Assembly: GCA_016946835.1 (NCBI GenBank)
Contig: JACVTC010000060.1
Coordinates: 274,001 to 338,000, forward strand
Reading direction: 5' to 3'
Source: Neocallimastix lanati (nom. inval.)
Taxonomy: Eukaryota > Neocallimastigomycota > Neocallimastigomycetes > Neocallimastigales > Neocallimastigaceae
DNA length: 64,000 nt
Positions within the stretch are counted from its first letter, which is position 1, and the number at the start of each line of letters is the position of its first letter. The position numbers were made by a program, and so were the translations under genes. Under the pieces are notes generated by a model. The model was not told the DNA's origin. It made no database searches and saw only the letters and a program-made list of their open reading frames with translations. Shown here piece by piece: positions 9,384-55,728 of the stretch.

Positions 9384-9397
9384 AAAAAATGGAAATG

Positions 9398-9471
9398 GCT
9401 CGCGTAGCCTAATCGGATAGGGCGTCAGACTTCTAATCTGAAGATTGCGGGTTCAAGTCCCGCCGTGAGTG
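9398..9471 (+). tRNA. tRNA-Arg(UCU) copy 1
   Basis: Full 74-nt cloverleaf: acceptor GCTCGCG pairs with CGTGAGT, anticodon loop CTTCTAA with anticodon TCT, T arm GCGGG-TTCAAGT-CCCGC, discriminator G. No intron and no encoded CCA. T runs follow from about +6, suited to Pol III termination. The native 5' flank has been replaced by element A. Confidence 0.97.
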
Positions 9472-9846
9472 CTTATTTTTAATTTTATTTTTTTTTTATT
9501 CTATTTTATTTTATTGCTTAATTTTTTTTTTTTTTTAAAAAAAAAAATTTATATTATTTAACGTTCTGGAGGGCAAGGTTCTTTGCTAATGAACTTTTTA
9601 TTTCTTTTTTTAAATATAATTCACTTTTTTTTATTTGGAGTAATTACTTTTTTTATTACATATTTTTACTATTTAAGAAAAAAATTATTATTATGCTACA
9701 ATTTTGATAAATAATATATATATATGTATATTTTTCATTTTTATTAATTTTTTTTTTTTTTTTTTAAAAAATAATATTCATGCAATTAATAGTAAAAAAA
9801 AAAAAGTTAAAAATTCGCAGTAATGGCAACTGTTAAGAAAACACAA
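9472..9846. other. Type II tRNA spacer
   Basis: A/T-rich spacer containing CTGGAGGGCAAGGTTC and TGCTAATGAACTTTTT, and ending in the conserved AGTAATGGCAACTGTTAAGA block (9819-9838) that normally precedes the next tRNA-Arg. Related spacers follow tRNA 3 and the tRNA pseudogene. No coding potential. Confidence 0.7.
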
Positions 9847-10776
9847 TGTAAAGAATAATAATTAATTTTTATTAAAATAAAAAATAATTATTAATCTTTA
9901 TTAAATAAAATAATAATTATTTAATAAATTTTATTAACTTTATTATAAAATATTTTTAATATAAAATTATTATTAATAATTTAAAATTAATATTTTAAAA
10001 TTATTATTCTTTATCATTGTATTAATTAATAATATTAAAATAATTAAACATTAATATTTTTTATATTTGTTAAAATTCATTTGATAATTAAATGTTAAGT
10101 TTTAATTTAAATAATTGTTACATTAATATAATTTTAAACAAATCTAATATAAATTATAGAATTATAATTTAGAAATAATTATAAAATTATATTAAAAATC
10201 ATAATGTAACAAATCAAATGAAAAAAGAATAATTAATATTTAAAAAATTAATTAAAATAAAACAATGTCATGTATAATTGACATTGTTTAAATAAAACAA
10301 ATGTTAATTGAAGTTTTCCGATTGGAAAATATCGGTTTTTATTCAATTAACATATGATCAATTTTATTAATAATTGATCATTAAACTTTTTAGGTTTTTC
10401 TCCCAAATCTTTTCCTAAAAAGTTATTCATTAAGATTTGGAACTTTACTATAAATAATTCTTGATTTTCTTTATTTTGAAAATCAAGAGTTATTATTATA
10501 AGAATATAATTATAATAATAAACAAAATAAATTTTTAATTATTTTAGAAATAACAAAATCTTAATAAAAATTATTTTTTAATAAAAAATATTTTAATAAA
10601 AATAAAAATTTTATGAAATATTGGTATAATTAAATCTCTTATAATAAACTCCTCCATCTATTTTGTGTGTTAAGTATTTTCTTTTACTTCTGTTTTATTC
10701 CTCAATTAATATTAATTATTAGTATTAATTGTAGAAAAGGGTTAAATTTAATTAAGTTTAAATTTAATTCTTTACA
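9847..10776. repeat. G-type solo LTR 1
   Basis: 930 bp with a perfect 10-bp terminal inverted repeat, TGTAAAGAAT ... ATTCTTTACA. Interior blocks are homologous to 23599-24616 (for example TTTTTAGGTTTTTCTCCCAA and GAAAATCAAGAGTTATTATT). A TATAAAT at 10449 is followed by a perfect 10-bp hairpin CTTGATTTTC / GAAAATCAAG at 10460-10487. It begins right after the conserved pre-tRNA block, the same insertion position as copy 2. No exact target duplication. Confidence 0.65.
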
Positions 10777-13200
10777 AACAATTGATACGGGCTGGGGTTG
10801 AAACACTAAGATATTCAAAACAAAAAAAAAATAAATATTAACACATAACTATAAAAATAAATTTGGAAACAAAAAAAAATTAAATTTTAAAATATTCTTT
10901 ATTTAAATTTAAAATTAAAATTATTTGTTCCCAGTATTAAAAAGAAAGAAATTTATTCTTCTTTTTATACTTTTATTTTAATACATTTTATTTATTATTA
11001 ATATATTCTTTATAAAAAAAAAACTATTATAACTATTTTATTTTAATTTTTAACTATTATTTTAAATTATTTTTTAAAAAAAAAAAAATAACATTTATTA
11101 AATTAAAATATAAAAAATTAATTTAGAGCTTGTATCACGAAGGGCATTCCGGGCGGTAGCTTCTTCTTGATATTGTTTTTCAGAGAGAGAATTATACAGA
11201 ATTGATATTTTTTGTATTTTAGATCATTTTTTTTATTATTGAAATTCTGTATTTTAGTTCATTTTTATTTTTAATAAAGATTTAATTTATTTTTGATTTT
11301 TGATTTATTTTTAGTTTATTTCAAAGGTTTAGAAAATATTATACAGAAACTTATAATTCTGTATTTTATATCAAATATTTATTGAAATAGGTTTTTATTA
11401 TTCTTAATATAAAAATAGGAATTAGTAATGATTTAAATATTATATAATTTTTAATAAGAATATTTAGTAATAATTTTTATTATATTTAATATTAATAAAA
11501 TATTTAATAATTATTTTTATTAGATTTGATATTAATAAAAGATTTTAATAAGAATATTTAATAATAATTTTTATTATATTTAATATTAATAAAAGAATTT
11601 TATAAGAATATTTAATAATAATTTTTATTATAAAAGATTTTAATAAGAATATTTAATAATAATTTTTATTATATTTGATATTAATAAAAGATTTTAATAA
11701 AAATATTTAATAATAATTTTTATTAGATTTGATATTAATAAAAGAATTTTATAAGAATATTTAATAATAATTTTTATTATATTTGATATTAATAAAAGAA
11801 TTTTATAAGAATATTTAATAATAATTTTTATTATATTTAATATTAATAAAAGATTTTAATAAGAATATTTAATAATAATTTTTATTAGATTTAATATTAA
11901 TAAAAGAATTTTATAAGAATATTTAATAATAATTTTTATTATAAAAGATTTTAATAAGAATATTTAATAATAATTTTTATTATATTTAATATTAATAAAA
12001 GAATTTTATAAGAATATTTAATAATAATTTTTATTATATTTAATATTAATAAAAGAATTTTATAAGAATATTTAATAATAATTTTTATTATATTTGATAT
12101 TAATAAAAGATTTTTATTAGAATATTTAATAATAATTTTTATTATATTTGATATTAATAAAAGAAATTTTTAAGAATATTTAATAATAATTTTTATTATA
12201 TTTAATATTAATAAAAGAAATTTATAAGAATATTTAATAATAATTTTTATTATATTTGATATTAATAAAAGATTTTAATAAGAATATTTAATAATAATTT
12301 TTATTATATTTGATATTAATAAAAGAATTTTATAAGAATATTTAATAATAATTTTTATTATATTTAATATTAATAAAAGATTTTAATAAGAATATTTAAT
12401 AATAATTTTTATTAGATTTGATATTAATAAAAGAATTTTATAAGAATATTTAATAATAATTTTTATTATAAAAGATTTTAATAAGAATATTTAATAATAA
12501 TTTTTATTATATTTAATATTAATAAAAGCATTTTATAAGAATATTTAATAATAATTTTTATTATATTTGATATTAAAGATTTTTATTAGAATATTTAATA
12601 ATAATTTTTATTATATTTGATATTAATAAAAGAATTTTATAAGAATATTTAATAATTATTTTTATTATATTTAATATTAATAAAAGATTTTAATAAGAAT
12701 ATTTAATAATAATTTTTATTAGATTTGATATTAATAAAAGAATTTTATAAGAATATTTAATAATAATTTTTATTATAAAAGATTTTAATAAGAATATTTA
12801 ATAATAATTTTTATTATATTTAATATTAATAAAAGAAATTTTTAAGAATATTTAATAATAATTTTTATTATAATTTTTATTATAAAAGATTTTAATAAGA
12901 ATATTTAATAATAATTTTTATTATATTTAATATTAATAAAAGAATTTTATAAGAATATTTAATAATAATTTTTATTATATTTAATATTAATAAAAGAAAT
13001 TTTTAAGAATATTTAATAATAATTTTTATTATATTTAATATTAATAAAAGAAATTTATAAGAATATTTAATAATAATTTTTATTATATTTGATATTAATA
13101 AAAGATTTTAATAAGAATATTTAATAATAATTTTATTTTATTATTATTAAGAGTATTTAATAGGAAATACAAGGTATTTCGTGACACCCCGTATCGCAAC
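10777..13200. other. Remnant interior with GC islands around a minisatellite
   Basis: No gene. It starts with TGATACGGGCTGGGGTTGAA (10783), has a GC-richer patch at 11127-11160 with GGGCATTCCGGGCGG, and ends with GTGACACCCCGTATCGCA (about 13180-13197). The first and last patches are imperfect inverted copies (ATACGGG / CCCGTAT). They may be the leader ends of degraded elements belonging to the LTRs on either side. Confidence 0.4.
11441..13138. repeat. Minisatellite, about 57-bp unit, roughly 30 copies
   Basis: The unit AATATTTAATAATAATTTTT plus ATTATATTTAATATTAATAA plus AAGATTTTAATAAG is repeated throughout, with variants (GATATTAATAAAAG, AAGAATTTTATAAG) and shortened units that skip the middle block. 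The order of variants recurs in longer blocks, suggesting higher-order duplication. Confidence 0.9.
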
Positions 13201-14631: not shown

Positions 14632-14705
14632 GCTCGCGTAGCCTAATCGGATAGGGCGTCAGACTTCTAATCTGAAGATTGCGGGTTCAAGTCCCGCCGT
14701 GAGTG
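14632..14705 (+). tRNA. tRNA-Arg(UCU) copy 2
   Basis: Same 74-nt sequence as copy 1 with anticodon TCT. A run of seven Ts follows immediately. Its upstream flank is the E-related solo LTR; its downstream spacer is only about 120 bp before the left LTR of element B. Confidence 0.97.
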
Positions 14706-14823: not shown

Positions 14824-15575
14824 TGATAAATTTTAGAAATTATCTTAATTTTAATATAGAATTAAAAAGTGATAATTTCTATTTATTTTAATAATAACTG
14901 TATAAGTTATTTATGAATTAAAATAATGGTTTATTAAAAATAACACTAAAAATTTGATTTATTAGAACACTTGTTTTCTAATATTTTATTTTAGAAATCT
15001 TTTATTAGAATTTATTAAACATTATAAAATTTAAAAGTGATTATTAAAATTATAAAATTAATTAATTAATTAATAATAATAATAATATTTACATGAAATA
15101 TTTACAAGTATTTATAATTTTCTTTAAAATTAAACTATTTATAATTTATAAATAATAAGAATAATTAAATAAAATAAAAGTAATAAAATTAATAATAAAA
15201 TAAATATTTAATAATAAAATAAATAAATTTGTTTATTATAAAAATAATTAAAAATATTTTGTTATTTAAATTAATTAATTTTGTTATTATATAAATGTTA
15301 TTTAATTATAAAATTAATTATAAAAATTATTATAAAACTAATTATAAAAATTAATTATTTTATTTTAAATTTAATCTTAATATTTTTATTTTGAAAAATA
15401 TATAGTATTTCTTTCATATCTGAGTATTAATGTAATTTTTAAGTGTAATTTATTTGTTTTATTTAATAATTAATTAATTTTTTTATTTAATTAAATTATT
15501 ATTAAACTTGGCTAAGGTTAGTTTTGATTTTATGTATAATAAAATTTCAAGATTTATTAATTTTGTTATTTATCA
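14824..15575 (-). repeat. Left (3') LTR of element B, E-type
   Basis: 752 bp. Its minus strand begins TGATAAATAACAAAATTAAT and matches the 760-bp LTRs of E across their length, ending in TTATCA on the plus strand. It is unlike the LTR at the other end of B. Confidence 0.85.
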
Positions 15576-15587
15576 ATTCCTCGGCGG

Positions 15588-16568
15588 TTAAGATTGAACT
15601 TCGTCCCTTGAAGTTAATTCTTTTTCTGGAATGATATAAGGAAAAACATTTTTAATATGTACATTTCGATCAAGAAGTTTTCCTGTTTGAGGATCTTCGA
15701 GGACAACTGTATTGAATTTTTGTTTGTTAACTACTTTATATGGTCCATAAAAGTAAGGATTTAACTTACTTCTTCCAATTAATCTTATCATCACATAATC
15801 TCCGGGTTTATAATTTTTCTTTAGTGATTTCGATAGTCCAATGCGATGTTCCCAATATTGATTTGCGTAATCCGAATATTCTGTTGCTTGTTTCACCCAA
15901 TTCTGATGTCTTAGGAATCTTCTAAAAATATATTCTTCATCTGATTCATTTGGATCTTTGTAAACATCTGGAAACATTACTTCTAATGGCCAGGTGTCTT
16001 TTCTCCCATAAAGTAATTCAAAGCTGCTAAATTTTGTTTTGGAATTTTTTGTTGTTCTAAGAGCCCATAAGGCGGATGGTAAAACTTCATCCCAATCCTT
16101 ATTCTTAGAACCCAACAACCTCAATAACTTTTCGATCTCTTTATTACGGTTTTCCGTAAGTCCATTACTTTCTGGATGATATGTGGAAATAAACTTCACA
16201 TATACATCATAGAGATCTAAAAATATTTTCGTCATGTCCGAGGTGAACTGAACACCATTGTCAGTTGTTATTACCTGTGGAACACCATGACGAGCAAACA
16301 CATTAATTAAGAACTTAATCACATCATGTGATGTTATATTTTCCGTGGGTTCTGCTTCAACCCATTTGGTGAAGTAATCCACCACAACCATAATATATTG
16401 ATTATTATTTTTAGTTTTAATCAAAGGTCCAATAATATCTAAATCCAAATGTATAAAAGGACCTTCTACTTTAGTTGGAATATTTTCTGTAGGTTCTGGA
16501 TATGGTTGTGACATATTCATCTGACATTTGTCACAACTTTGCACCACTCTTTTAATATCCATCACCAT
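15588..16568 (-). pseudogene. Integrase portion of element B pol, E-like C terminus
   Basis: 326 codons after the amber at 16574-16572. The His/Cys domain tail (CDKC) and catalytic core (LDIIGP, TTDNGVQF, ESNGLTEN) follow A closely. From about ALWALRTTKN onward the protein switches to the E version (KTKFSSFELLYGRKDTW ... TSRDEVQS), differing from E at only two or three residues. The switch maps to about 16055-16070. A Met at the N-terminal end exists but is unlikely to be a natural start. Confidence 0.85.
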
Positions 16569-16574
16569 ATTATT

Positions 16575-18599
16575 CTAATAAAAACTTTTATGAAGCCTTT
16601 GATAAGTCTTATAATATCCCTCATGACCTATCTTATGGGCTTCTAAAATAAGTTTTACTCTTTCCGTTTGATCAGTAATTAATTTACGATAGTTATTACC
16701 ATCAACAAAGTAATCTTCACCATCTATCGTAACAAATTTTTCATTTATAAAGTCTTTAATAGTTTTAGAAAGCAACTCTTCTTCTTCCTTTGAAGTTAAC
16801 TTAGTTGCCAATACCACAGAATCATCTCTTTTCTTCATCCTAAATAATGCATCGGCTAACACATTTTTCTTACCCATTTGATATTGAATTTCAACACCAA
16901 GGGTACTAACAGTTAAGCACCATCTTGCTTGCCTAGCATTATTAGGTTCCTTATTTTTAAAGAAACTGATTAAAGGTTTATGATCTGTTATTACTACTGT
17001 TTTATTAGGATTTCCTAATATATAAGATTTCAACTTAGTAATACAATAAATTAATGAAGCTCCTTCCAAGTCAGTAATGACATAATTTTTCTCGGCTTTA
17101 CTTAAACTTCTACTTATATAATGAACTGGATGTTCCTTTTTGGTTTCTAAATCTTCTTGGAGTAATACTCCTCCAATACCTTCATAGGAATCATACGTTC
17201 TAATTATAAACCTTTGATTAAAACTTGGATATTTTAAAATTGGAGCATTTATTAATTTTTCTTTTAACAGATCAAAACTTAGTTGATGTTCAGTATTCCA
17301 TTTATATTTAACATTCTTTCTTAATAATTTACATAAAGGAGCAGAGATTTGAGCATATTTATCAATAAAGTTTCTATAATATCCTACAGCTTGAAGAAAA
17401 GATCGTAATTCATAAACATCAACAGGTGCTACCCACTCCTTGATAGCCTTAATTTTGCTATCCTGGGAACTTAAACCTTTCACTGATGCCTTATGACCTA
17501 AGACTTCTACTTCAGTCTGCATAAAGGCACATTTTTCAATGTTAATTTTCAATTTGTGTTGGCGAAATACTTCCAACACTTGTCTAATGTGGCTTATATG
17601 TTCTTCTATACTCTTAGAGTATATTAAAATATCATCTATAAAGTTAAAAACAAACTTTCCTATAAATGGGAAAAGAATCCTATTCATTTCCCTTTGAAAT
17701 GTAGCTGGGGCTCCGGTTAAACTAAAAGGCATAACCTTGAATTGATAGTTACCAAATTTTGTGGTGAAGGTGGTAATTTCTACACTTTCCTCATCCATCA
17801 AAATTTGATGATAACCAGAGTAAAGATCCATTGTTGTAAAAATCTGTGCCCCATCTAAACTATCAAATATCTCATCAATGTAAGGTAATGAATAAGAATC
17901 TTTAACTGTTAAATCATTAACCTTACGATAATCAATACATAATCGCCATTTACCGTTCTTCTTCGGTACTAACACTATTGGCGATGACCATTCGGAACAA
18001 GAAGGTTCAATTAATTTCTTATTAATTAATTTAATTAATTCCTCCTTAAGTATATCCGACTTAAATTTTACTAATCTGTAGCACCTTTGCTTAACTGGTT
18101 TCGCACCAGGAATTAAATTAATTTTATGTTGAGGAAGATCAGAAGGTGTTAATTCTTCTGAAGAAGTAGCAACTATTTCTAAGTTCTCCTCCAGAATTTT
18201 AATTATTTCATCTTTATATTTTTCGTTTAAAGTATTTAGGAAAATTTCATGATGAATATATTGCTTTGGGGATAATCCTTCAATTTTCTTTAAATCATTC
18301 TTTTTGGAATCCTCATCCAAAGCCTTAATCATACACAACAACTTTTCTTCATCTTCATAATCATTATTAATAGGTGCAATAACGTCAATTACTCCTTCTG
18401 GAGTAATTTGACACAAACTATATAAAATGGGGTGGATAAATAACTTATAATCAATCTGGGTTTTTAAGTTAATTAGAATATCGTAAAAAGGTTCCTCCTT
18501 TTCTACTATTCTACAATTAACCATTAATACAAGATTATTAATTTTTACTGGCACCCGAATGATATAACTTTCCGAGTAATCATCATTCTTAGACCACAT
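16575..18599 (-). pseudogene. RT and RNase H portion of element B pol
   Basis: 674 codons. RT carries LCIDYRKVND, MPFSLTGAP (Ser where A has Gly) and FIDD; RNase H has IRTYDS where A has IRTDAS, altering the region of the first catalytic Asp. It ends in TAG where A has TGG (Trp), a single-base nonsense change. The apparent start at 18599 is only the edge of the inverted segment. Homologous to A throughout, about 60-65% by eye. Confidence 0.88.
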
Positions 18600-18600
18600 T

Positions 18601-18795
18601 TATAAAAGTAAATGTAACGAACCAAGTGAAGAGGATATTGCCATGGTTGATGTTACAGTTGAAGGTGTTTCGGGGAAGGCTTTAATTGATTCATGTAGTA
18701 ATTTAAGTATAATTACTCAACAATTTTTAGATAAGCTTCCGTCCGAATATGAACCTATTGATATTAGTCGTGGCAGAATTAGGTTGGCAACTATG
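18601..18795 (+). pseudogene. Inverted protease segment of element B
   Basis: This 195-bp piece encodes, on the opposite strand to the rest of B, the residues that A has between its VVNN-like block and the end of the RGRIQLAT block, including the protease motif ALIDSCSNLSI. The flanking minus-strand frames stop and resume at exactly the matching points. It is therefore an in-place inversion that removes the protease from the pol frame. As in A the motif is D-S-C. Confidence 0.88.
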
Positions 18796-19667
18796 TTATT
18801 AACGACCACAGTCGTGGCTGACACTTTATCCAACACCCCAGAGATATTAGATTGGTCCCTATCCAATTTAATACCCTGTGACACCTTATATCTTAATTTT
18901 GGAGCAGCATCCAATAACTGTCCAAAAGTAATATTGCAATGGGCAGAATTTAAATCTTTAAGAATATCATATTCTCCTTCCCCCGATTGCATCTTAATTT
19001 TCCTAGATACCCTAGAACTTTTAGTTTCTTTTTGAGTATCTTTATCTTTACTATTTAACACCCTTGTTAAATCAATTACTTTATTATTCTCCTTCACAAT
19101 ACTTTTATTATTATCATTATTTTCTTTCATTAAATTTTTATTCTTTCTTTTATTATTATTTACATTATTTTTAATAACTTCATCATTCACTAATGAATTA
19201 TTATTAATATTATCATTATTATTATCATTACTATTATTATTACTATAATTAGTATTACTATTACTAGCTCTTTCATTATCACGAATTTTTCTTTCAATCT
19301 CTTTTTCTTTTTCAATTCGTGGTTGAGCTAAAATAGATGGTTTAATTTGTTTAACAATTTTATTACTTATATTATTTTCTTTTACTTCTCGTTCTTTCTG
19401 TTTTCGTAATGCAGGAGTTATTATAGGTTTAGGATTCTCCTTCAACGACTTATGAATCCTTTTCTCTGCACTACCTTCATCATTGTTAACATCATAAATT
19501 TTACGTTTAGATGCTCCTACTAAATAATCAACTTTCTTTTTATTAACCACCCTTTTATTAGCAGGAGTTTCTTCAATATTAGAAAGACGAGAATTTTTAA
19601 TTTCTTTTTGATATTTAATTGAAGCTGCTTTATTAAGTATGGGAGAGCTTCTTATCCCATTACTCAA
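18796..19667 (-). pseudogene. N-terminal pol segment of element B
   Basis: Entered by -1 frameshift at 19667; the first codon is TTG, so no independent start is expected. About 290 codons, polar and Asn-rich, with ITFGQLLDAAPKLRYKVSQG matching A's TIGQLLNACP block. The open frame continues into the inverted segment only as nonsense protein (to 18717). Confidence 0.8.
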
Positions 19668-19673
19668 TTTAAA
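19640..19673 (-). promoter_or_regulatory. -1 frameshift signal of element B
   Basis: Heptamer TTTAAAT (19673-19667) in phase with gag codons TTA AAT, a 7-nt spacer holding the stop TGA, then TGGGA ... TCCCA. The sixth stem pair found in A and E is lost (T opposite C), giving a 5-bp stem and 10-nt loop. Confidence 0.75.
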
Positions 19674-20347
19674 CGTTTATTGTTTCTAATTTCCTTCCTA
19701 TTTTTCTCAACAATTGCTCTCAACTTTGGGCAATTGTTTTGATAATGACCTGGTTCTTTACAGAAATAACAAGCCTTTATTGTTAAACTTCTCATTTTTC
19801 TTGTTAATTCCTCTATGTCATTATCTTCTTTAGGTTTAATATTAACTTTTTGTTCTAATTTATTTTTAATAGGAGGATGAAAATTAACTCTATTACTAAA
19901 AGAAGATGTATTTGCAGAAGGTGAAGGGGTAGAAGGATGTCTTCTTTGATTACTACCCATATAATTTAACCTATCTGCTTTTTCAGCAATTTTAAAGGCT
20001 TTTGACAGAGAAATGTTATCAAATAAGGTTAGACGTTTCCAGGCTTCAACATTGTTTTCAATGGAGTCTGTGTAATCTAAAACACTTATCTGACTTCTTT
20101 TCTTTTTGTTTAATTTTAAATATAAAGTTTTATACTTAATATTAAAATCTTTAATTCTTTCATTTCTCTTAATTCTGAGAGCACGTAGCTCTCTTAATAA
20201 ATTATTTTGATCCTCCCTAATGCCATAAAATTCTTCTATAGCTTTTACAATTCTATTAAGGGAAGGATAAGCCTTATTCTTTTTATCAATTTCTTTATCT
20301 TCTTCATTATCATCATCCTCATTTTCATCATCAATATCCTTATAATT

Positions 20348-20382
<35 letters not shown>

Positions 20383-20635: not shown

Positions 20636-20756
20636 TTTAAAAAAAAAAAAAAACACACTTTTAAAAAAAAAATAAAATAAAAAAAAATTTTTTTATTAAT
20701 TATTTAATTGCTATATTTATTTATTTATTTATTTATTTATTTACAATTAAAATTAT

Positions 20757-21022: not shown

Positions 21023-21058
<36 letters not shown>

Positions 21059-22000: not shown

Positions 22001-22002
22001 CT

Positions 22003-43863: not shown

Positions 43864-43887
43864 GTCGCTCAGGGGCTCGACTTAAAC

Positions 43888-43896: not shown

Positions 43897-44837
43897 TGTA
43901 AAATATTTAATAATTTGAATACGTATTTAAATGTAATGTAATGTAAATTATTGTGGATAAAAATGTTTTCCAAATTTTTAATATAAATTTAAATGTATTC
44001 CAAATTATTAATTTAATTAATTTTCTCTAAAATGTATGACTAAATTATTTGGAGAATTTACATCATTATTACTCACTTTGAATCATGGAACTTTGTAAAT
44101 TAAAAATAATTAGTCATGAAACTTGTAAATTAAAAATAATTAGTCATAAATTAGTTAAATTAAAATAATCAAAGAAAAATTGCCTTTTCCGTTTGTTTAC
44201 AAAAACTTGCCGTTTTGTTTATTTATTTTTAGAAATATTAGATAGTTTTAAATAGTTTTTATATTAAAATAACTCATAAAAATTCATGTAATTTATTATT
44301 AAATGTAATTACAAATATATAATAATATTTTAGTTAGTTTATTACAATCTATTCAATTTAAATTTTAATTTTCAAAAAGTATAAAATGAGTTAATTTTCA
44401 ACTATTGAACGATAGTTGGAAAATAGTATAGAAAATAGTATAGTTTAGTTAGAAAATAGAATAGTATAGGAAATATTATAGATAAGATAGATAGTACAAA
44501 TTTTATATTTTATTAATTAGTATTATAACTATTATTAGAATAGTTATCTTTTATAAAACAAATTTTATTTTAAATTTTATTTTAAAATCTTAACTGCTAG
44601 TAGGCTTTCCGGTAAAGGACCCTACGGTACCCAGTTAAGTGATTGTTGATTTTAGAATAGTTAAATTCAACAAATAAGAAATATTAATAAAAGGATTTTT
44701 TTATAAAACAAAAAATTAAACTAGTTTTTTAGTTTTAGTGTTTTAGTTAATAATTAATTATAGTGTTGATATAATAAAATAGTGTAAAATAAATTATAGT
44801 CTGTCCTCGCCGACCTAAGCTATTATTTTATTTTACA
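43897..44837 (+). repeat. 3' LTR of element D
   Basis: 941 bp, about 99.6% like the 5' copy by eye (for example GGACTCTACGG versus GGACCCTACGG). Confidence 0.92.
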
Positions 44838-44865: not shown

Positions 44866-44939
44866 GCTCGCGTAGCCTAATCGGATAGGGCGTCAGACTT
44901 CTAATCTGAAGATTGCGGGTTCAAGTCCCGCCGTGAGTG
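44866..44939 (+). tRNA. tRNA-Arg(UCU) copy 8
   Basis: Consensus gene. Only TGTTATAAAAATTTCAACTT and eight further bases separate it from the 3' LTR of D, so the TATAAAAA stretch is kept. Confidence 0.97.
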
Positions 44940-47903: not shown

Positions 47904-47977
47904 GCTCGCGTAGCCTAATCGGATAGGGCGTCAGACTTCTAATCTGAAGATTGCGGGTTCAAGTCCCGCCGTGAGTG
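47904..47977 (+). tRNA. tRNA-Arg(UCU) copy 9
   Basis: Consensus gene, preceded by a type-b flank (CACAGTAATGGCAACTGTTA) and followed by TTTTTT. Confidence 0.97.
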
Positions 47978-48422
47978 TTTTTTATCATTTTTTTATAAAT
48001 TTTTTAATTCGGAAATGAAATATGAACTTTTTTTTTCTGAATTTATTTATGCACTCTTTATTTTGAACAATAAGTTTTTATGTCACTTTACTAATTAAAA
48101 TGTATTATTATGACACTATTTGGACTATTAATATATATTTTTTTTTTTTTATTTTTAAAAAATAATATAAATGTAATTAATAAAAAAAAAAATTTTTTTC
48201 CTAAATTTATTTATATACTCTTTATGTTGAATAAATATTTTTTATTTCATATTACAATTTAAAAAAAAATTATATTCTAATTTGGAAAAATAATATTTAT
48301 TTTTATTTTTTTTTATTATTATTTTTTTTATTAAAAATATATATTCATATAATTAATAAATGAATGAATAAATAAATACAACTAAATTTCACAATAATGG
48401 CAGCCATTATAAAAATTTCAAT

Positions 48423-48913
48423 TGATAAATAACAAAATTAATAAATCTTGAAAATTTATTATACATAAAATCAAAACTAACCTTAGCCAAGTTTAATAAT
48501 AATTTAATAAAATAAAAAAAAATTAATTAATTAATTAAATAAAACAAATAAATTACACTTAAAAATTACATTAATACTCAGATATGAAAGAAATATTATA
48601 TATTTTTCAAAATAAAAATATTAAGATTAAATTTAAAATAAAATAATTAATTTTTATAATTAGTTTTATAATAATTTTTATAATTAATTTTATAATTAAA
48701 TAACAATTTTATAATAACAAAATTTATTAATTTAAATAACAAAATATTTTTAATTATTTTTATAATAAACAAATTTATTTATTTTATTATTAATTATTTA
48801 TTTTATTATTAATTTTATTACTTTTATTTTATTTAATTATTCTTTTTATTTATAAATTATAAATAGTTTAATTTTAAAGAAAAATATAAATACTTGTAAA
48901 TATTTCATGTAAA

Positions 48914-48947
<34 letters not shown>

Positions 48948-49182
48948 TAATTTTATAATTTTAATAATCACTTTTAATTTTTATAATGTTTAATAAATTT
49001 TAATAAAAGATTTATAAAATAAAATATTAGAAAACAAGTGTTCTAATAAACCAAATTTTTAGTGTTATTTTTAATAAAACATTTTTAATTCATAAATAAC
49101 TTATACAGTTATTATTAAAATAAATTGAAATTATCACTTTTTAATTCTATATTAAAATTAAGATAATTTCTAAAATTTATCA
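48423..49182 (+). repeat. 5' LTR of element E
   Basis: 760 bp with 8-bp inverted ends TGATAAAT/ATTTATCA. Same sequence as 54955-55714. Confidence 0.93.
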
Positions 49183-49922
49183 GTTGTCCTTCGAACCGGA
49201 GAGGCAGCTAACTTATTATTAATAAGTATTATTTATTAACACTAGAGTATGAACTAGTATAAAAATTCATAATAATAAAATAAAGGATAAATAATATTTA
49301 TTATATAATAATAATTAAAAATTAAAACTAGAGTATGAACTAGTATAAAAATTCATAATTTAAAATTAAAAATAAAATATATATATATATGTATATATAT
49401 ATAATAATATAATAATAATATAATAAATAGAAATTAAATTAATATTGGGAAGAAAGCCATTTATATTAAGAAGAAAATAATAAATAAATAGGAAAAGAAC
49501 GACAAATATAAGGAAAGGAAACGATAGATAATATTTTGAAAAAAAAAAAAAAAAAAAAAAAAAAAATTCTATTTTAATTTTAAAGAATTATATAGGTTTA
49601 TATTTTATTAATCATAAACTATTGGAGCTTGACTCTAGGTCGCGATTAATAAGATATAAATTAGAGTAGCAAGAGAGAGTATTGGGTCCTGATTATAGAG
49701 AGTAGAGGTTAGACAGAACTGAAAATTGTACTGGAGAGTAATTGATTGGTTATATCGATACTTTGGTGAGAGATCCAGAGAAACGGAAAACTTTATAACC
49801 AGTCGAATGAAAACAGCACAAGAGAGTAAGTAGAGTCTAATGAGGTCGAAAATATAATCAGAACGCCAAGAAAATCTATTACTGCTACATATATAATTCG
49901 AGGTTCTTAAATAAATAAATAA

Positions 49923-49975
<53 letters not shown>

Positions 49976-50182
49976 ATAATAACTAATTAAAGAAACGTAT
50001 AATAAGTGAATGAATAAATATATTGAAATTGAATATATAAAATTTTAATTAATTAAAAATTTGATTAAATAATTAAATTTAAATATATAAATATTTTGTT
50101 AGCGAATAAATTATTATATAAAATAAAGTATATAAATTATATTAAAGAAAAAAACAAAAATACTTCTAAATTCCAGAGTAAA
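49183..50182 (+). other. Long 5' leader of element E
   Basis: 1000 nt without a gene. It starts GTTGTCCTTCGAACCGGAGA, where the PBS should be; this neither begins with TGG nor complements the LTR, so the primer is unclear. Then two copies of ACTAGAGTATGAACTAGTAT (49242 and 49326), A runs at about 49541-49565 and 49926-49973, and a purine-rich, GC-richer block (49600-49890) where TGGTTATA (49757) can pair with TATAACCA (49795). Confidence 0.55.
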
Positions 50183-51076
50183 ATGTCCGATTTAAAATCA
50201 ATTAATTTCAACAGAATTCCTATATTAGGTCAACCGACTGTAGAATTTGATGATTGGAATTTCTCATATACTCGTTGGTGTAATTCCAATAAAATTGATG
50301 AAGAAGAAAAGATAGAATGTTTAATTTCAATTACTACTGGTATTGCAAGAAAGATAGTAATAAATTCATTAAATAAAACTACCCCAGATAAATATGATAC
50401 CATTATAAGTAAATTACAGGAACATTACAAGGGTCCTCTTCCTAAAAATTCAAGGTTATTAGAACTTTCAACAGCTACAATTAAGAAAGGTGAAAGTGTT
50501 GCAGAATTCAACATAAGGTTTGAAACACTTTTAAATAAAATTAGAATTGATTTAAATAAGGAAGTTATAATCTCTTATTATATTAATGCATTTCGGGCTT
50601 TAACTAAAACCTATGAGGCTTTATTAGAAGCAGAACCGCAAAACTTAAAAGATGTAATGCAAATAACGTCTAAAAAGGAGAAGATATATAAATTAGTAGA
50701 ATCAAATAGGTCTAAAGATAAAGGAGAACCAAACAAAAGAAAAATAAAATCTAACACTCAAAATAATTATGGAACATATTATACAAGTACTTATAATAAA
50801 AATAATTCATTTAATAATAAGAATAATAATATAAATAATAGTCACAACAATAATTACCAAAAATATAATAATAATATAAAACCTACTCATAATTATATTA
50901 ATCAAAATGTTGAAAATAGAAAAATCACATTGAAACCTACACAACTCCAAGATGATGAATTGCAAGAAATAACTCAGAAACTTGCTGATTTAAAAATCAA
51001 TGTATGTTTAAATTGTCAAAGAATAGGTCATGTTAAAGATGATTGCCCTGAATTAGAAGAAGAATGTTTAAATTAA
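50183..51076 (+). CDS. gag: Gag protein of element E
   Basis: 297 residues from the ATG at 50183; an in-frame upstream TTG is ignored. Capsid-like helical region with FDDWNFSYTRWCNSNKIDEE, ITTGIARKIVINSLN and VAEFNIRFETLLNKIR; an Asn-rich segment (about 190-240); then one CCHC knuckle CLNCQRIGHVKDDC near the C terminus. The last codons TGT TTA AAT overlap the frameshift site. Only distantly related to gag of A and B. Confidence 0.9.
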   Translation: MSDLKSINFNRIPILGQPTVEFDDWNFSYTRWCNSNKIDEEEKIECLISITTGIARKIVINSLNKTTPDKYDTIISKLQEHYKGPLPKNSRLLELSTATIKKGESVAEFNIRFETLLNKIRIDLNKEVIISYYINAFRALTKTYEALLEAEPQNLKDVMQITSKKEKIYKLVESNRSKDKGEPNKRKIKSNTQNNYGTYYTSTYNKNNSFNNKNNNINNSHNNNYQKYNNNIKPTHNYINQNVENRKITLKPTQLQDDELQEITQKLADLKINVCLNCQRIGHVKDDCPELEEECLN

Positions 51077-51100
51077 ATTATGGGAGTAAGCAATCTCCCA
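51067..51100 (+). promoter_or_regulatory. -1 ribosomal frameshift signal of element E
   Basis: Heptamer TTTAAAT (51067-51073) in gag phase TTA AAT, stop TAA next, then after 7 nt the stem TGGGAG (51081-51086), 8-nt loop, CTCCCA (51095-51100). Same heptamer type, spacer and stem sequence as in A. Confidence 0.87.
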
Positions 51101-54100
51101 AAATAACTAAAATTGCATCATCGAATCAATCAATAAATTACCTTAATAAGGAAAATAATCAAATCCCTCAAATTAATGTAGCCCAGAAAAAGAAAGTGCC
51201 TACAAGTACTTTGGATAAGAATAAAATCTCTCCAAATAATAAAAGTATAGTTAAACCATCCATTCTCAATCAACCAAATATTAAGAAAGTTAAACAACAA
51301 AAGAAAGCAATTAGGAATACAAGAAGAAGAAAAATAAGTGAAGAACTTAATAATGAAAAACAAAATGACCATGAATTAAATGATAATGAGGAAATTATTA
51401 TTGATGAACCATATAATACAAAGGAAAATACAAAAGATTCTGAAATGAAAAATAATTCAGAAATCAATAATGGAAATAATAATGAAAGTAATAATGAAAA
51501 TAATAAAAATAATGTAATTAACATAATTGATGAACATAGAAAAATAAATAATGAAAATAATACCAAAGACGTTCTAACACATAGTCAATCTCTCAGTCAA
51601 ACTAAACAAACCAGAAAAAGAAGTATGACAGATATACAAATGTTAGAATCAGGTAATAAATTTAGTATAATTAAGGAAGCCAACATCTTGTTTCCGAAAA
51701 TTAGTCTTGCACAATTACTTTCTATTAGTCCTACTCTTAGGAAGGAATTAGGACAAGGTTGTAAGCCAAAGATAGAAAATGTATTATGCTCTCTTTATAA
51801 TATTCCTATTCCAATCTTCATTGGAAAAACGAAAGAAGTATTTTTAAAAATTCTTTACGATACAGGAGCAAATGTAAATGTTATAACAACAGGATGTTTA
51901 AATAAATTTAATGATGTGAAAATTGAAGAAGATATAATAGAACAAAATATTACTTTAGCAAATGGATCTACAGTACCTACTAAATACTATGTTCCATTGA
52001 AAATTAACATTAATGATTCTTGCAACATTTATGAAAAATTTTATATTATAAATCAAGATAATCCATACTTTGATATTATTTTTGGAAGAAGTATCCAAAA
52101 GAAATATAGATTACTTATTGATCCAGATGATGATTTCATATATCAGAAAACAAGAAAAGGTCTTAAAAAGATAATCCAGATAATTAACTCAAATAATACA
52201 AATAATATTCCCTTAATGAATGCTATTTATGTATCTAAAGAAGATGAAGAAATTCGTGAATTTAACTCTACCTTAAACGAAATTCTCAATTCTGTTCCAG
52301 ATAAAGTTAAATCAAAATTTGAAAGTCTTATTAATCAATACAAAAATTGTATGGCAACATCACTAAGTCAGCTAACAACTGCTAACCTTGAACCACATTC
52401 AATAATTACTACTACTGAAAAACCTATTAAGCTAAAACCTTATAAATTATCAAAAGAGCATTCTGATATTCTAAAAGAAGAAATTATATCCTTACTTAAT
52501 AAAGGCTTAATTATTCCCTCGCATTCCCCTTGGTCATTTCCTGTTTTATTAGTCAGAAAGAAAAATGGGAAATGGAGACTATGTATAGATTACAGAAGGC
52601 TTAATGAAATCACTATTAAAGATTCATATGCACTCCCTTTCATCGATGAACTTGTCTCTTCAGTTAGAGGTGCTAAAATATTTTCAGCCCTTGACTTATA
52701 TTCGGGTTATCACCAAATCCCAATGAATCCCAGAGATATCGAAAAAACTTCTTTCACAACAAAATTTGGAAACTATAATTTTGTTGTTATGCCTTTCGGT
52801 TTAACTAATGCTCCCGCTACCTTTCAAAGGGAGATGAACAGAATCCTTTTACCCCTCATTGGTAAATGCTTATTCGTTTACATCGATGACATAGTTGTAT
52901 ATTCTACTTCTATTGAAGAACATCTTGAACATTTAAAACAAGTATTTGAAATATTCTCCAAGTATAATCTCTCCCTCAATCTTCAAAAATGCAAATTTTT
53001 CCAAGAATCAATTGAAGTCTTAGGTCATGTTCTTACCCCTAATGGTTTAAAAACTGTTCCTTCTAAAGTTCAAAGTATAGCCCTTTGGGAAGCTCCCAAA
53101 AATGTTAATGAACTCAGGTCTTTCCTTGGTCTTGCTAGTTATTACAGAAAATTTATACAAAATTTCTCTATAAGAGCTGACTCTCTTTTTAAACTACTTA
53201 AGAAAAATCAACCATATATATGGACTTCTGATCGTAATGAAGCTTTTGAAGACATACGTCACTGTTTATTGTCTGACCCTATATTATGTTATCCTGACTT
53301 TGATAAAGTATTTATAGTTAGAACAGACGCCTCTACTCAAGGTATCGGTGCTGTCCTCTTACAGGTGGAGGAAGACAAATTGGAACACCCAATTTGTTGT
53401 GTAAGTCGTACTTTATCACCTCCAGAAAGAAATTACTCTGTAACTGATCTTGAAGGTTTGGCTATTAATTACGCAATCCAAAAATTCCGTCAGTACTTAA
53501 TTAGTAACAAGAAACCAACTATATTCATTACGGATCATAAACCACTCTTAGGATTTTACAAAAATACTATTCCAAATAAAGGAAGACACATGCGTTGGAT
53601 AGAAGAATTTAACAAATATAAAATTGAAATAAAATATGAAAAAGGAAAGAAAAATGTTTTCGCAGACGCTCTTTCAAGACTACCTTCAAAAGACAGCGAA
53701 GATATTATAAAATGTATTAATACAATTTTAGCTGATCTTAATCCAAAAGATTTAAACCTACCAGAAGGAATAATCAAATACTTCACTAAGAATTATCAAG
53801 TTGTTGATAACACCTTATATTATAAGAAAGATGATACTTATTTAAAAGTTATCTACCGTGATGAAGACAAAAAGGATATAATTAATCGTGCTCATTCTGT
53901 AGGACATGAAGGAGCCGAAAAAACTGTAAACAGAATACTAAATTCATATTATTGGCCCGGCATTTGGAATGACGTTAGGATGTGGATCAAATCTTGCAGA
54001 AAATGTCAACTTTGTAGACCAAAACCAATCCCGAAAAACACTGCAGATAATGTAACACCAGTTGAACAACCATTTACTCGTGTTGGACTTGATACGATTG

Positions 54101-54942
54101 GTCCTCTTCCAATTATTAAAAATGGAAATATGTATATTATTACATTGGTTGACTACTTCACAAAATGGGTTGAAGCTAAAGCCATTCCAAACACAAAGAC
54201 TGAAGAAGTTATAAAATTTTTAACTGAAGTTATATCAAGACATGGTCCTCCAGAAATAATTGTTACAGATAATGGAAGTTCGTTCGCATCAGATATTACT
54301 AAAATGATGATCGATCTTTATGGGTCATGGGTGCACTTTGTATCTCCACATCATCCAGAATCAAATGGTATGATTGAAAACCGTAATAGAGAAGTAGAGA
54401 AAATTCTAAGACTCTTAGTTGAAAACGAAAGTGAATGGGATGAATATTTACCATCCGCACTTTGGGCTCTTAGAACAACAAAAAATTCCAAAACAAAATT
54501 TAGCAGCTTTGAATTACTTTATGGGAGAAAAGACACCTGGCCATTAGAAGTAATGTTTCCAGATATTTACAAAGATCCAAATGAAACAGATGAAGAATAT
54601 ATTTTTAGAAGATTCCTAAGACATCAGAATTGGGTGAAACAAGCAACAGAATATTCGGATTACGCAAATCAATATTGGGAACATCGCATTGGACTATCGA
54701 AATCACTAAAGAAAAATTATAAACCCGGAGATTATGTGATGATAAGATTAATTGGAAGAAGTAAGTTAAATCCTTACTTTTATGGACCATATAAAGTAGT
54801 TAACAAACAAAAATTCAATACAGTTGTCCTCGAAGATCCTCAAACAGGAAAACTTCTTGATCGAAATGTACATATTAAAAATGTTTTTCCTTATATCATT
54901 CCAGAAAAAGAATTAACTTCAAGGGACGAAGTTCAATCTTAA
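51073..54942 (+). CDS. pol: Pol polyprotein of element E
   Basis: 1289 codons from the frameshift point. About 250 polar N-terminal residues include SLAQLLSISPTLRKELGQG, a distant match to A's block. Then protease LYDTGANVNV (about 262), RT with LCIDYRRLNE, MPFGLTNAPA and YIDD (about 602), RNase H VRTDASTQGIG (about 749), integrase zinc domain (H-x3-H ... C-x2-C, about 942-979), core Asp in LDTIGP, Asp in VTDNGSSF, Glu in ESNGMIENRN (about 1005, 1064, 1098), and a C-terminal region (KSLKKNYKPGDYVMIRLIG) without a chromodomain. The last 150 residues recur almost unchanged in B. All catalytic residues are present. Confidence 0.94.
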   Translation, partial: LNYGSKQSPKITKIASSNQSINYLNKENNQIPQINVAQKKKVPTSTLDKNKISPNNKSIVKPSILNQPNIKKVKQQKKAIRNTRRRKISEELNNEKQNDHELNDNEEIIIDEPYNTKENTKDSEMKNNSEINNGNNNESNNENNKNNVINIIDEHRKINNENNTKDVLTHSQSLSQTKQTRKRSMTDIQMLESGNKFSIIKEANILFPKISLAQLLSISPTLRKELGQGCKPKIENVLCSLYNIPIPIFIGKTKEVFLKILYDTGANVNVITTGCLNKFNDVKIEEDIIEQNITLANGSTVPTKYYVPLKININDSCNIYEKFYIINQDNPYFDIIFGRSIQKKYRLLIDPDDDFIYQKTRKGLKKIIQIINSNNTNNIPLMNAIYVSKEDEEIREFNSTLNEILNSVPDKVKSKFESLINQYKNCMATSLSQLTTANLEPHSIITTTEKPIKLKPYKLSKEHSDILKEEIISLLNKGLIIPSHSPWSFPVLLVRKKNGKWRLCIDYRRLNEITIKDSYALPFIDELVSSVRGAKIFSALDLYSGYHQIPMNPRDIEKTSFTTKFGNYNFVVMPFGLTNAPATFQREMNRILLPLIGKCLFVYIDDIVVYSTSIEEHLEHLKQVFEIFSKYNLSLNLQKCKFFQESIEVLGHVLTPNGLKTVPSKVQSIALWEAPKNVNELRSFLGLASYYRKFIQNFSIRADSLFKLLKKNQPYIWTSDRNEAFEDIRHCLLSDPILCYPDFDKVFIVRTDASTQGIGAVLLQVEEDKLEHPICCVSRTLSPPERNYSVTDLEGLAINYAIQKFRQYLISNKKPTIFITDHKPLLGFYKNTIPNKGRHMRWIEEFNKYKIEIKYEKGKKNVFADALSRLPSKDSEDIIKCINTILADLNPKDLNLPEGIIKYFTKNYQVVDNTLYYKKDDTYLKVIYRDEDKKDIINRAHSVGHEGAEKTVNRILNSYYWPGIWNDVRMWIKSCRKCQLCRPKPIPKNTADNVTPVEQPFTRVGLDTIGPLPIIKNGNMYIITLVDYFTKWVEAKAIPNTKTEEVIKFLTEVISRHGPPEIIVTDNGSSFASDITKMMIDLYGSWVHFVSPHHPESNGMIENRNREVEKILRLLVENESEWDEYLPSALWALRTTKNSKTKFSSFELLYGRKDTWPLEVMFPDIYKDPNETDEEYIFRRFLRHQNWVKQATEYSDYANQYWEHRIGLSKSLKKNYKPGDYVMIRLIGRSKLNPYFYGPYKVVNKQKFNTVVLEDPQTGKLLDRNVHIKNVFPYIIPEKELTSRDEVQS

Positions 54943-54954
54943 CCGCCGAGGAAT

Positions 54955-55445
54955 TGATAAATAACAAAATTAATAAATCTTGAAAATTTATTATACATAA
55001 AATCAAAACTAACCTTAGCCAAGTTTAATAATAATTTAATAAAATAAAAAAAAATTAATTAATTAATTAAATAAAACAAATAAATTACACTTAAAAATTA
55101 CATTAATACTCAGATATGAAAGAAATATTATATATTTTTCAAAATAAAAATATTAAGATTAAATTTAAAATAAAATAATTAATTTTTATAATTAGTTTTA
55201 TAATAATTTTTATAATTAATTTTATAATTAAATAACAATTTTATAATAACAAAATTTATTAATTTAAATAACAAAATATTTTTAATTATTTTTATAATAA
55301 ACAAATTTATTTATTTTATTATTAATTATTTATTTTATTATTAATTTTATTACTTTTATTTTATTTAATTATTCTTTTTATTTATAAATTATAAATAGTT
55401 TAATTTTAAAGAAAAATATAAATACTTGTAAATATTTCATGTAAA

Positions 55446-55479
<34 letters not shown>

Positions 55480-55714
55480 TAATTTTATAATTTTAATAAT
55501 CACTTTTAATTTTTATAATGTTTAATAAATTTTAATAAAAGATTTATAAAATAAAATATTAGAAAACAAGTGTTCTAATAAACCAAATTTTTAGTGTTAT
55601 TTTTAATAAAACATTTTTAATTCATAAATAACTTATACAGTTATTATTAAAATAAATTGAAATTATCACTTTTTAATTCTATATTAAAATTAAGATAATT
55701 TCTAAAATTTATCA
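54955..55714 (+). repeat. 3' LTR of element E
   Basis: 760 bp, same sequence as the 5' LTR. Preceded by CCGCCGAGGAAT, a weak polypurine tract. Confidence 0.93.
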
Positions 55715-55728
55715 CAATTTCAGAAATG

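Follow-up and report, generated by a model that had tools for sequence, protein, structure and literature searches.

The window, a stretch of 64,000 nucleotides of Neocallimastix lanati DNA, contains tRNA-Arg(TCT) genes and, at short distances upstream of them, the ends of LTR retrotransposons of several families. The features are as follows.

1206..9383, minus strand: element A, Ty3/gypsy, with an LTR pair (~1206-2060 and 8526-9383) and pol; its U3 end lies 14 nt before the tRNA at 9398
9398..9472, plus strand: tRNA-Arg(TCT), target of A
14618: end of an E-like LTR, 13 nt before the tRNA at 14632
14632..14705, plus strand: tRNA-Arg(TCT), target of the E-like LTR
14824..23028, minus strand: 'B', a mosaic element; its right-hand LTR, of family H, lies 29 nt before the tRNA at 23058
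23058..23131, plus strand: tRNA-Arg(TCT) behind the family H LTR
24616..24690, plus strand: LTR end (24616), 17 nt before a truncated tRNA-Arg (24634-24690)
27000..27659, plus strand: right part of a family F LTR, ending 65 nt before the tRNA at 27725; left boundary nominal
27725..27798, plus strand: tRNA-Arg(TCT), target of F
28713..35608, plus strand: element C, LTRs ~28713-29429 and 34902-35608; a later LTR follows its right end after 54 nt
36585..37039, plus strand: SINE copy (~455 nt, high copy) with a tRNA-like head, A and B boxes and an encoded CCA
37174: end of an E-like LTR, 12 nt before the tRNA at 37187
37187..37260, plus strand: tRNA-Arg(TCT) behind the E-like LTR
38206..44837, plus strand: element D, LTRs 38206-39146 and 43897-44837; 28 nt before the tRNA at 44866
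44866..44939, plus strand: tRNA-Arg(TCT), target of D
47837: end of a C-type LTR, 66 nt before the tRNA at 47904; absent from the first-pass annotation
47904..47977, plus strand: tRNA-Arg(TCT) behind the C-type LTR
48422..55714, plus strand: element E, LTRs ~48422-49182 and 54954-55714; 14 nt before the tRNA at 55729
55729..55802, plus strand: tRNA-Arg(TCT), target of E, the first of eight tandem units that extend to 59608

The distances given by the first-pass annotation for A (14 nt), E (14), the E-like LTRs (13 and 12), the G-type LTR (17), D (28) and the right end of B (29) were reproduced on re-measurement, as was its value of about 65 nt for C, counted on an intact array unit as 65 nt from the end at 35608 to the tRNA; its 66 nt for F was corrected to 65 (27659/27725). 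The placing of B as a second member of the 28-29 nt group became doubtful, since its right-hand LTR belongs to family H, which lies 29 nt from the gene in the window versus 13-16 nt in four other cases (two of them near-identical records). In this mosaic, positions 14824-16100 (LTR and integrase tail) are 97% identical to E, and RT-RH is 76% identical to A. The gap at 37174 becomes 17 nt if the degenerate end of the E-like LTR is read as ...TTATTTAT. The tRNA-like match at 36585 was rejected as a tRNA, being the head of the SINE.

LTR pairs were present in A, C, D and E, and the Pfam domain order RT - RNase H - integrase places all four in Ty3/gypsy (Metaviridae). The families fall into two clades, A/B/E and C/D, with C and D sharing 62% identity in RT-RH. 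Target site duplications (TSDs) were found for most tested pairs and were mostly 4 bp in A and E (4 bp in 3/3 tested pairs of A) and mostly 5 bp in C and D (5 bp in 10/10 pairs of D); they were absent or of another length in 2/7 E pairs, 4/8 E solo LTRs and 3/7 C solo LTRs. Element E in the window has LTRs that are 100% identical and a 4-bp TSD, CAAT. Element D encodes a single gag-pol ORF that includes a chromodomain after the integrase core, as in chromoviruses (PF00385; E 9.5e-9 for the tail, 1e-7 for the whole ORF); by our reading of the tail, this chromodomain lacks the canonical cage residues. Pfam recognized only SH3_Tf2-1 and a weak Integrase_p58_C in the tail of C, which looks chromo-like by eye, and detected no chromodomain in A or E.

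LTR-to-gene distances across the assembly

The survey was extended beyond the window to the 199-Mb assembly, using the best-scoring hits per family rather than every copy, and distance was defined as the number of nucleotides between the terminal CA of the LTR and the mature tRNA 5' end. For families A, C, D, E and F, 201 outer LTR ends were collected, and 176 distinct in their first 60 nt remained after 25 duplicates were dropped. Thirty of these 176 point towards a Pol III-type gene no more than 120 nt away, and 29 of the 30 lie within 3 nt of the window value of their own family: 14-16 nt for A (4/4 gene-facing ends), 13-14 nt for E (5/5), 28-31 nt for D (n = 11), 65-66 nt for C (n = 4) and 65-68 nt for F (5/6, the exact end of the F LTR being uncertain by 1-2 nt). 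The sixth F end, seen at L164 and again in the duplicate record L165, lies 39 nt ahead of a SINE, a distance that only a later SINE insertion would explain. With this single exception, the classes A/E (13-16), D (28-31) and C/F (65-68) do not overlap, and the sister families C and D differ in offset by ~37 nt. The peaks near -14, -28 and -65 anticipated by the first-pass annotation were therefore found in these samples of best hits, and its pattern of distances upstream of tRNA genes recurs at other loci, at other isotypes and in independent insertions, a recurrence beyond chance.

The first-pass remark on the window, that no LTR lies within a tRNA or just 3' of one, has exceptions in the genome sample: one D LTR lies inside a tRNA-Ser gene (L212L; the gene was named by reading the sequence), and an E LTR stands 3' of a tRNA-like gene (L046/L047), with the L045/L047 pair having no TSD. 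Furthermore, 81 of the 176 ends lack both a gene in the adjoining 120 nt and a listed LTR start in the adjoining 130 nt and are individually unexplained; part of these are expected, because one end per insertion must face away and the dictionary of LTR starts described below is incomplete.

It was considered whether arrays and segmental copies had multiplied a few insertions whose equal distances were simply inherited. Arrays do exist, 25 of the 201 ends were duplicates, C114 has an inverted duplicate, and near-identical records remain in a tRNA-centred set of 67 upstream regions (34 Arg, 33 Met) whose last 100 nt all differ. However, the 176 retained flanks all differ in their first 60 nt, the targets vary in isotype, TSD and host LTR, and independent TSDs and host LTRs argue against one or two ancestral insertions, making this explanation very improbable.

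The targets comprise several tRNA isotypes, tRNA-like genes with A and B boxes, and tRNA-headed SINEs; the earlier description of insertion upstream of tRNA-Arg was correct for Arg and too narrow as a rule. Before tRNA-Met the offsets were 14 for A, 13-14 for E, 29 for D, 66 for C and 67-68 for F, and before tRNA-like1 genes they were 15 for A, 14 for E and 29-31 for D. SINE copies are preceded by D at 30 (L213), C at 66 (L097) and F at 65 (L172), one case each, and five SINE leaders inspected by eye (L156-L160) had no recognisable LTR end at 14, 29 or 66. The offset of C stays at 65-66 whether box B starts 50-51 nt (L081, L097) or 71-72 nt (L093, L184) into the gene; the latter two genes are intron-bearing by reading of the sequence.

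These target comparisons also bear on selection, under which insertion would be broad upstream of the genes and the survivors would be those at harmless positions. The genome does show survivors alone; however, the sharp position at which insertions persist in front of a given gene type (tRNA-Met, tRNA-like1) differs between families, and survival should not hinge on family to within 1-2 nt. Selection as the sole cause is accordingly judged highly unlikely.

The tRNA leaders were also examined directly. In 56 non-array leaders, CA dinucleotides numbered 15 at position 14, 10 at 29 and 6-7 at 65-67, over a background of 1.65; counts also peaked at 5, 12, 24 and 43-44, with smaller peaks elsewhere, and because these extra peaks come from related leaders, this family-free test was not relied upon. 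The E_U3 word used alongside this count was one base too long, so that its values there are one too small. A word search of the leaders, with up to two mismatches allowed, gave one E_U5 match at 14 and 14 scattered matches (2-125); the scattered matches were taken as chance in AT-rich DNA, as were D_U5 at 4, D_U3 at 70 and 86, and E_U3 at 104. Kb at 66-67 was rejected as an LTR end, being an internal match in A, and C_U5 at 14 was rejected as a C end, being an A end (L145).

LTR stacks and interrupted LTRs

Where another LTR comes before any gene, the distance to that next LTR fell into the class of its family for 58 of the 65 ends (A 6/7, E 19/20, D 7/9, C 17/18, F 9/11), the outliers lying at 31, 117, 82, 112, 62, 61 and 98 nt. 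The next LTR at L100L lies at 55 with the final dictionary (41 by a word since dropped). First-order Markov resampling of the same flanks gave a mean of 2.4 flanks with a dictionary hit and a maximum of 6 in 100 rounds, versus the 65 observed. It should be noted that the dictionary of LTR starts was drawn up by visual inspection of the same flanks, with one word dropped, three added and one widened between rounds, so that the A/E values of 2-7 nt are partly built in, which applies far less to the values of C, D and F. The flanks GATACGG, GTTACGG and GTTATGG beside E were kept as LTR starts because a TG begins after a few nucleotides, as in LTRs; a novel Pol III gene was rejected there, 18 loci having no Rfam match.

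Insertions into a standing LTR leave a remainder of it, read as a dictionary match to an LTR end, of 13, 14, 16 and 16 nt for D, 49-51 nt for C in 13/13 cases, and 50, 52, 52, 56 and 110 nt for F; the same dictionary gave no such remainder for A or E. Since D, C and F leave near-constant remainders of varied host LTRs (for F in most cases, 50-56 nt), it is the distance and not the sequence that is conserved.

These data bear on the possibility that each family prefers a short motif that is fixed in tRNA leaders. The D sites before tRNA-like1 genes do fall within one conserved stretch (TSDs CCATG, CATGT, ATGTA); however, D keeps the same distance with unrelated TSDs (CAAGT, TTAGA) before tRNA-Met, as well as before Arg, Ala and a SINE, and the offsets of D, C and F are unchanged when the target is the LTR of another family. 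A target-sequence preference is thus largely contradicted and has an exceedingly small probability.

A proposed docking model and related elements elsewhere

Very probably, these Ty3/gypsy families aim their integrase at assembled Pol III promoter complexes, with each pre-integration complex docking in its own register. Distances, TSDs, sequence independence, target range and clade membership can be read from the DNA itself, which also suggests Pol III factors as the tether and the integrase tails as the contact. For A and E, together with LTR families H and I, the cut would fall about 14 nt upstream of the mature RNA 5' end, close to the transcription start as in Ty3; for D the position would be about -29, and for C and F about -66. 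Distance would be measured from the start-site side (box A/TFIIIB), because the C offset is constant despite the varying distance of box B and the D, C and F offsets are constant across sequences. That different families contact different parts of the promoter complex, as had been proposed for the window, is supported by distances that survive on another LTR's DNA, which fits docking on a protein complex; the part contacted is deduced from distance. A and E may act between TFIIIB and the start as in Ty3, C and F on the upstream side of TFIIIB, and D inside or against its footprint.

Instead of TFIIIB itself, the first nucleosome upstream of the gene could fix the -66 register through its edge. 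Ty1 uses nucleosomes upstream of Pol III genes, as described in the available part of that account (PMC5911963), with an insertion window of ~1 kb, whereas C lies at 65-66 nt and leaves remainders of 49-51 nt on varied sequence; a nucleosome ruler is therefore considered unlikely, although with an appreciable probability.

Under docking on the Pol III complex, older LTRs would be pushed outward by new -14 insertions, and D, C and F would be able to insert into an LTR already standing there, which together would yield ordered LTR stacks at Pol III genes and suggest an order of insertion within them. A broader proposal, for which we consider the chances about even, is that related families within one genome use three or more separate docking registers on the Pol III promoter complex, that the shift between the registers of C and D arose through a change in the C-terminal tail of the integrase, including its chromodomain, and that the stacks record insertion order and mark SINE and tRNA-like copies that carry a Pol III complex in vivo.

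Family-specific tRNA targeting is known from yeasts and dictyostelids; comparisons here follow the portions of the published accounts available to us. Ty3 of Saccharomyces cerevisiae resembles A and E in being a Ty3/gypsy element that inserts ahead of Pol III genes, ~15 nt away from the mature tRNA, and its integrase docks on TBP/Brf1 of TFIIIB (PMC8632968). However, Ty3 has a 5-bp TSD and a chromodomain (PMC8632968), whereas A and E have mostly 4-bp TSDs and no Pfam chromodomain, and one position is given for Ty3 in that portion versus three here. DGLT-A of dictyostelids, a Ty3/gypsy element without a chromodomain that inserts ~15 bp upstream in either orientation, also resembles A and E, and stacking of insertions at one gene has been noted for it too; its window in D. 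discoideum is 13-33 bp, whereas here 14, 29 and 66 belong to separate families with little scatter. The spacing of ~15 nt that Ty3 and DGLT-A share is found in A and E and not in C, D or F.

Skipper-2, a chromovirus of dictyostelids, is, like D, a chromodomain-bearing Ty3/gypsy element at tRNA genes, and its chromodomain lacks cage residues, as that of D does by reading of the tail; however, it inserts downstream of tRNA genes and D 28-31 nt upstream. The integration chemistry of TRE5-A of Dictyostelium differs from that of LTR elements. TRE5-A inserts at a near-fixed upstream distance, 80% within 47 +/- 3 bp, which is argued to be set by box A and not box B, similar to the families here, and it also targets A/B-box loci without tRNA context; it is a non-LTR element at -47, whereas A, C, D and E have LTR pairs and the offsets here are 14, 29 and 66, so that a TRE5-like assignment does not apply. 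Tj1 of Schizosaccharomyces japonicus is a Ty3/gypsy element with a 5-bp TSD that inserts upstream of tRNA genes and also at 5S genes, but unlike the families here it lies 5-11 bp from the mature tRNA end in one orientation only. The available parts of the literature on tRNA-targeting elements described neither three sharp LTR registers nor SINE targets nor an LTR family at -66, and titles and abstract openings revealed no apparent account of tRNA-targeted LTR elements in anaerobic gut fungi.

For Ty3, the path from a tether to a position precise to a base or two is known in structural detail, as far as the available portion describes it (PMC8632968). Related families at three positions on the same kinds of gene constitute a natural experiment, in which the parts that accompany the shift can be picked out by comparing the tails of C and D, and those of A/E with both. 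The LTR stacks would give relative insertion times, and the insertions would footprint Pol III complexes at the SINEs and tRNA-like genes of a gut fungus believed difficult to manipulate.

tRNA-Arg genes, LTR elements and their distances in the window

The window (C555:274001-338000 of an assembly of 199,045,447 bases in 762 contigs) has a GC content of 20.7% and contains 17 complete tRNA-Arg(TCT) genes, every one on the + strand, as well as a truncated copy at 24634; the final eight complete genes lie in tandem units of ~540 nt each. A [FeFe] hydrogenase encoded in this assembly shows full-length identity of 96% to a Neocallimastix frontalis entry and of 88% to one from Piromyces sp. E2; judged by this single protein, the host is an anaerobic gut fungus resembling Neocallimastix. 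Four LTR pairs were delimited by alignment, with the TG...CA ends lying a few bases inward:

1198-2060 and 8522-9384, LTR pair of element A
28712-29433 and 34901-35612, LTR pair of element C
38206-39146 and 43897-44837, LTR pair of element D
48420-49182 and 54952-55714, LTR pair of element E

The domain order of the elements (RT, RNase H, integrase; Pfam) is that of Ty3/gypsy. RT-RNase H identity is 55% between A and E, 53% between B and E, and 62% between C and D, compared to 40-43% between the A/B/E group and the C/D group. Pfam detected a chromodomain in D (E 9.5e-9) and none in C, A or E; C carries an SH3_Tf2-1 domain. Element B (14824-23028) is a mosaic in which an E-type LTR and integrase tail (14824-16100, 97% identical to E) are fused to an A-like RT (RT-RNase H 76% identical to A), and its two ends carry LTRs from two different families. 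Beside the A LTR, on its inner side, lies ACCA/GGAGATATCGGGG (8510-8530; also in sampled stretches L105 and L111), which, judged from sequence, looks like a candidate primer-binding site that would pair with the 3' end of a tRNA. Minisatellite arrays with periods of 40, 54 and 38 nt occupy 7162-7513, ~11326-13500 and 61466-61899, respectively.

Distances were counted as the nucleotides between the terminal CA of an LTR and the mature tRNA 5' end. A and E both lie at 14 nt, E-like LTRs at 13 and 12, and the LTR before the truncated tRNA at 17; D lies at 28 and the right end of B (family H) at 29, while F lies at 65 and C, as measured on the intact unit, also at 65. A C-type LTR end 66 nt before the tRNA at 47904 was absent from the first-pass annotation.

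Distance classes among sampled LTR ends

Genome searches with the LTRs returned, at first look, 3,899 candidates for E, 1,715 for A, 1,702 for C, 588 for F (query 27000-27662) and 288 for D, and only the best 40 per family were scored. Flanks were read for 30 of 40 full-length E rows (two of them window rows), 37 of 39 D rows outside the window (a tandem run on contig C173 contributing its two outer ends only), all 39 C rows, 20 of 41 A rows, and all 39 F rows at the 3' end only. After removal of internal-facing ends, 201 outer ends were obtained, window ends counted; 25 were duplicates in the first 60 nt, and 176 were kept (A 17, E 30, D 36, C 57, F 36). Of the 176 ends, 30 had a Pol III-type gene no more than 120 nt away and no listed LTR in front of it. 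The direct distances were as follows, where SINE and tRNA-like are our own labels from sequence words in the script, and the F end position may be off by 1-2 nt:

A: 14 (Arg), 14 (Glu), 15 and 16 (tRNA-like)
E: 13 (Met), 14 (Arg), 14 (Cys), 14 (Met), 14 (tRNA-like)
D: 28 and 29 (Arg), 29 (Ala), 29 and 29 (Met); 29, 29, 30, 30 and 31 (tRNA-like), 30 (SINE)
C: 65 and 66 (tRNAs read as intron-bearing; Ala and Tyr by ARAGORN), 66 (Gly), 66 (SINE)
F: 65 (Arg), 65 (SINE), 67, 68 and 68 (Met); 39 (SINE)

By the criterion of the first-pass annotation, sharp genome-wide peaks at about -14, -28 and -65 would support family-specific spacing, and the sampled ends did fall into separate classes: 29 of the 30 gene-facing ends lay no more than 3 nt from the window value of their family, with no overlap among the three classes. 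The exception, F at 39 nt, occurs at stretch L164 (of which L165 is a duplicate), where the SINE head sits within a TGATACGG-type LTR; we infer that this SINE was the later arrival.

The tRNA-centred view covered 67 upstream regions, 34 of tRNA-Arg (the window's included) and 33 of tRNA-Met, which differ in their last 100 nt, some being closely related to each other. A ends were found at 14, 14, 14, 15, 15 and 14 nt, E U3 ends at 13-15 in seven regions and at 104 in one, D ends at 28 (the window copy) and 29, and C ends at 66, 66, 66, 65 and 67. Three further families were seen: H at 13, 14, 14 and 16 (window copy 29), I at 15 and 15, and N at 64, 65, 66 and 66. The word search also gave loose matches at other positions.

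Stacked LTRs and insertion into other LTRs

At 65 further ends of the 176, another LTR starts ahead of any gene, and 81 ends had neither a gene nor a listed LTR start. The dictionary of LTR starts was built by eye from the very flanks tested and was revised during the analysis (one word removed, three added, one widened); in resampled flanks it gave a mean of 2.4 and a maximum of 6 hits over 100 rounds, compared to the 65 observed. The distance to the next LTR was 4, 4, 4, 4, 4, 6 and 31 nt for A, 2-7 in 19 of 20 for E (outlier 117), 17, 17, 19, 19, 19, 19, 19, 82 and 112 for D, 53-57 in 17 of 18 for C (outlier 62), and 54-58 in 9 of 11 for F (outliers 61 and 98). Should a -14 element have inserted in between afterwards, with a target site duplication (TSD) of 4-5 bp, the original distance would be the next-LTR value plus 14 minus 4 or 5, and on that condition the in-class values back-calculate to ~11-17 (A/E), 26-29 (D), 62-67 (C) and 63-68 (F). 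TSDs were 4 bp in all three A cases tested and in five of seven E pairs and four of eight E solo LTRs; they were 5 bp in 10 of 10 D pairs, two of which are mirror copies of one locus, and, in the first batch of C rows, in two of two pairs and four of seven solo LTRs. No common motif was apparent by eye in the D TSDs outside tRNA-like loci.

The DNA flanking D, C and F often starts with the remaining part of a different LTR, which runs out to that LTR's CA. By dictionary matches, this remainder measured 13, 14, 16 and 16 nt beside D, 49 (twice), 50 (three times) and 51 (eight times) beside C, and 50, 52, 52, 56 and 110 beside F, and no same-orientation match revealed a remainder beside A or E. 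An LTR that ends at -14 should be left with remainders of this kind when it is struck at -29 or -66. Position is thus preserved even where the DNA belongs to another element, which is strong evidence against a ruler based on a sequence motif.

To the left of A, at 1186-1205, an H-type LTR terminates (...TTCTTTACCA), separated from A by a few adenines, and we read A itself as part of a stack. At G000:C224:409757-411447, C335:826365-828110 and C429:1494-3247, two neighbouring A LTRs are separated, by their match coordinates, by 4, 4 and -1 nt, respectively, which indicates on sequence grounds repeated A insertion at one site. At L212 (G000:C68:313833-315101), a D LTR ends inside an apparent tRNA-Ser gene, in the T arm, and an A LTR starts ~12-14 nt before the 5' end of that gene. 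Four D LTRs at an equal spacing of 5,677 nt (G000:C173:20493-38450) look like tandem D elements with shared LTRs, and two D insertions at L073-L076 (G000:C114:184226-211492) have mirror-image flanks, an inverted duplication.

The ruler, its possible docking surface and the range of targets

At L081 and L097, box B starts 50-51 nt from the beginning of the gene, and at L093 and L184 71-72 nt from it, and C lies at 65-66 nt at all four loci. Because the distance is constant despite the box B shift, it is landmarks on the start side (box A, TFIIIB or start site) that set the C ruler; a start-side ruler is likewise argued for TRE5-A (PMC5391098). For Ty3, PMC8632968 describes an integrase that docks through its C-terminal parts, chromodomain included, on both TBP and Brf1; TFIIIB occupies -15 to -32 relative to the start site, and strand transfer takes place at -6/-2. 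Yeast start sites are stated to lie ~12 nt before the mature tRNA end. With start sites positioned as in yeast, the A/E cut would coincide with that of Ty3, the D cut would fall within the TFIIIB footprint, and the C/F cut would lie ~20-25 nt past its upstream edge. We infer that A/E may dock on the start-site side of TFIIIB and C/F on its upstream side, and D may meet a partial or differently bent complex. A nucleosome edge is also a possible basis of the -66 register.

Ty3/gypsy targeting of Pol III genes at element-specific distances is already known (PMC5006619, PMC5911963 and PMC4600332). Among the LTR elements tabulated there, the positions given place Beta/Tca8 at 6-30 bp and DGLT-A at 13-33 bp near the start site, Skipper-2 downstream, and Ty1 over 1 kb. 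Dissimilar from the DGLT-A window, -14, -29 and -66 belong to separate families here with little scatter; D lies upstream of its targets, unlike Skipper-2, and C stays at 65-66 nt, whereas Ty1 spreads. An LTR family at -66, a -29 class distinct from -14, and SINE targets were all absent from the excerpts of open-access literature on Pol III-targeting elements.

Three tRNA-like types (tRNA-like1-3), which we read as A and B boxes with an acceptor stem that does not close, and a tRNA-headed SINE are targeted at the same distances as tRNAs; the target need not be a true tRNA. The SINE served as target in one case each for D, C and F, and has ~1,014 first-look candidates in the genome. The tRNA-like1-3 targets are at L062, L064, L072, L078, L104, L110 and L211, and several have a conserved leader around CCATGTAACGAAATC. 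The high-copy SINE at 36585-37039 of the window is ~455 nt long, and its tRNA-like head ends in an encoded CCA; in the 40 copies that were scored, identity within the aligned portion was 91-100%, and the SINE is GC-rich although the genome is AT-rich.
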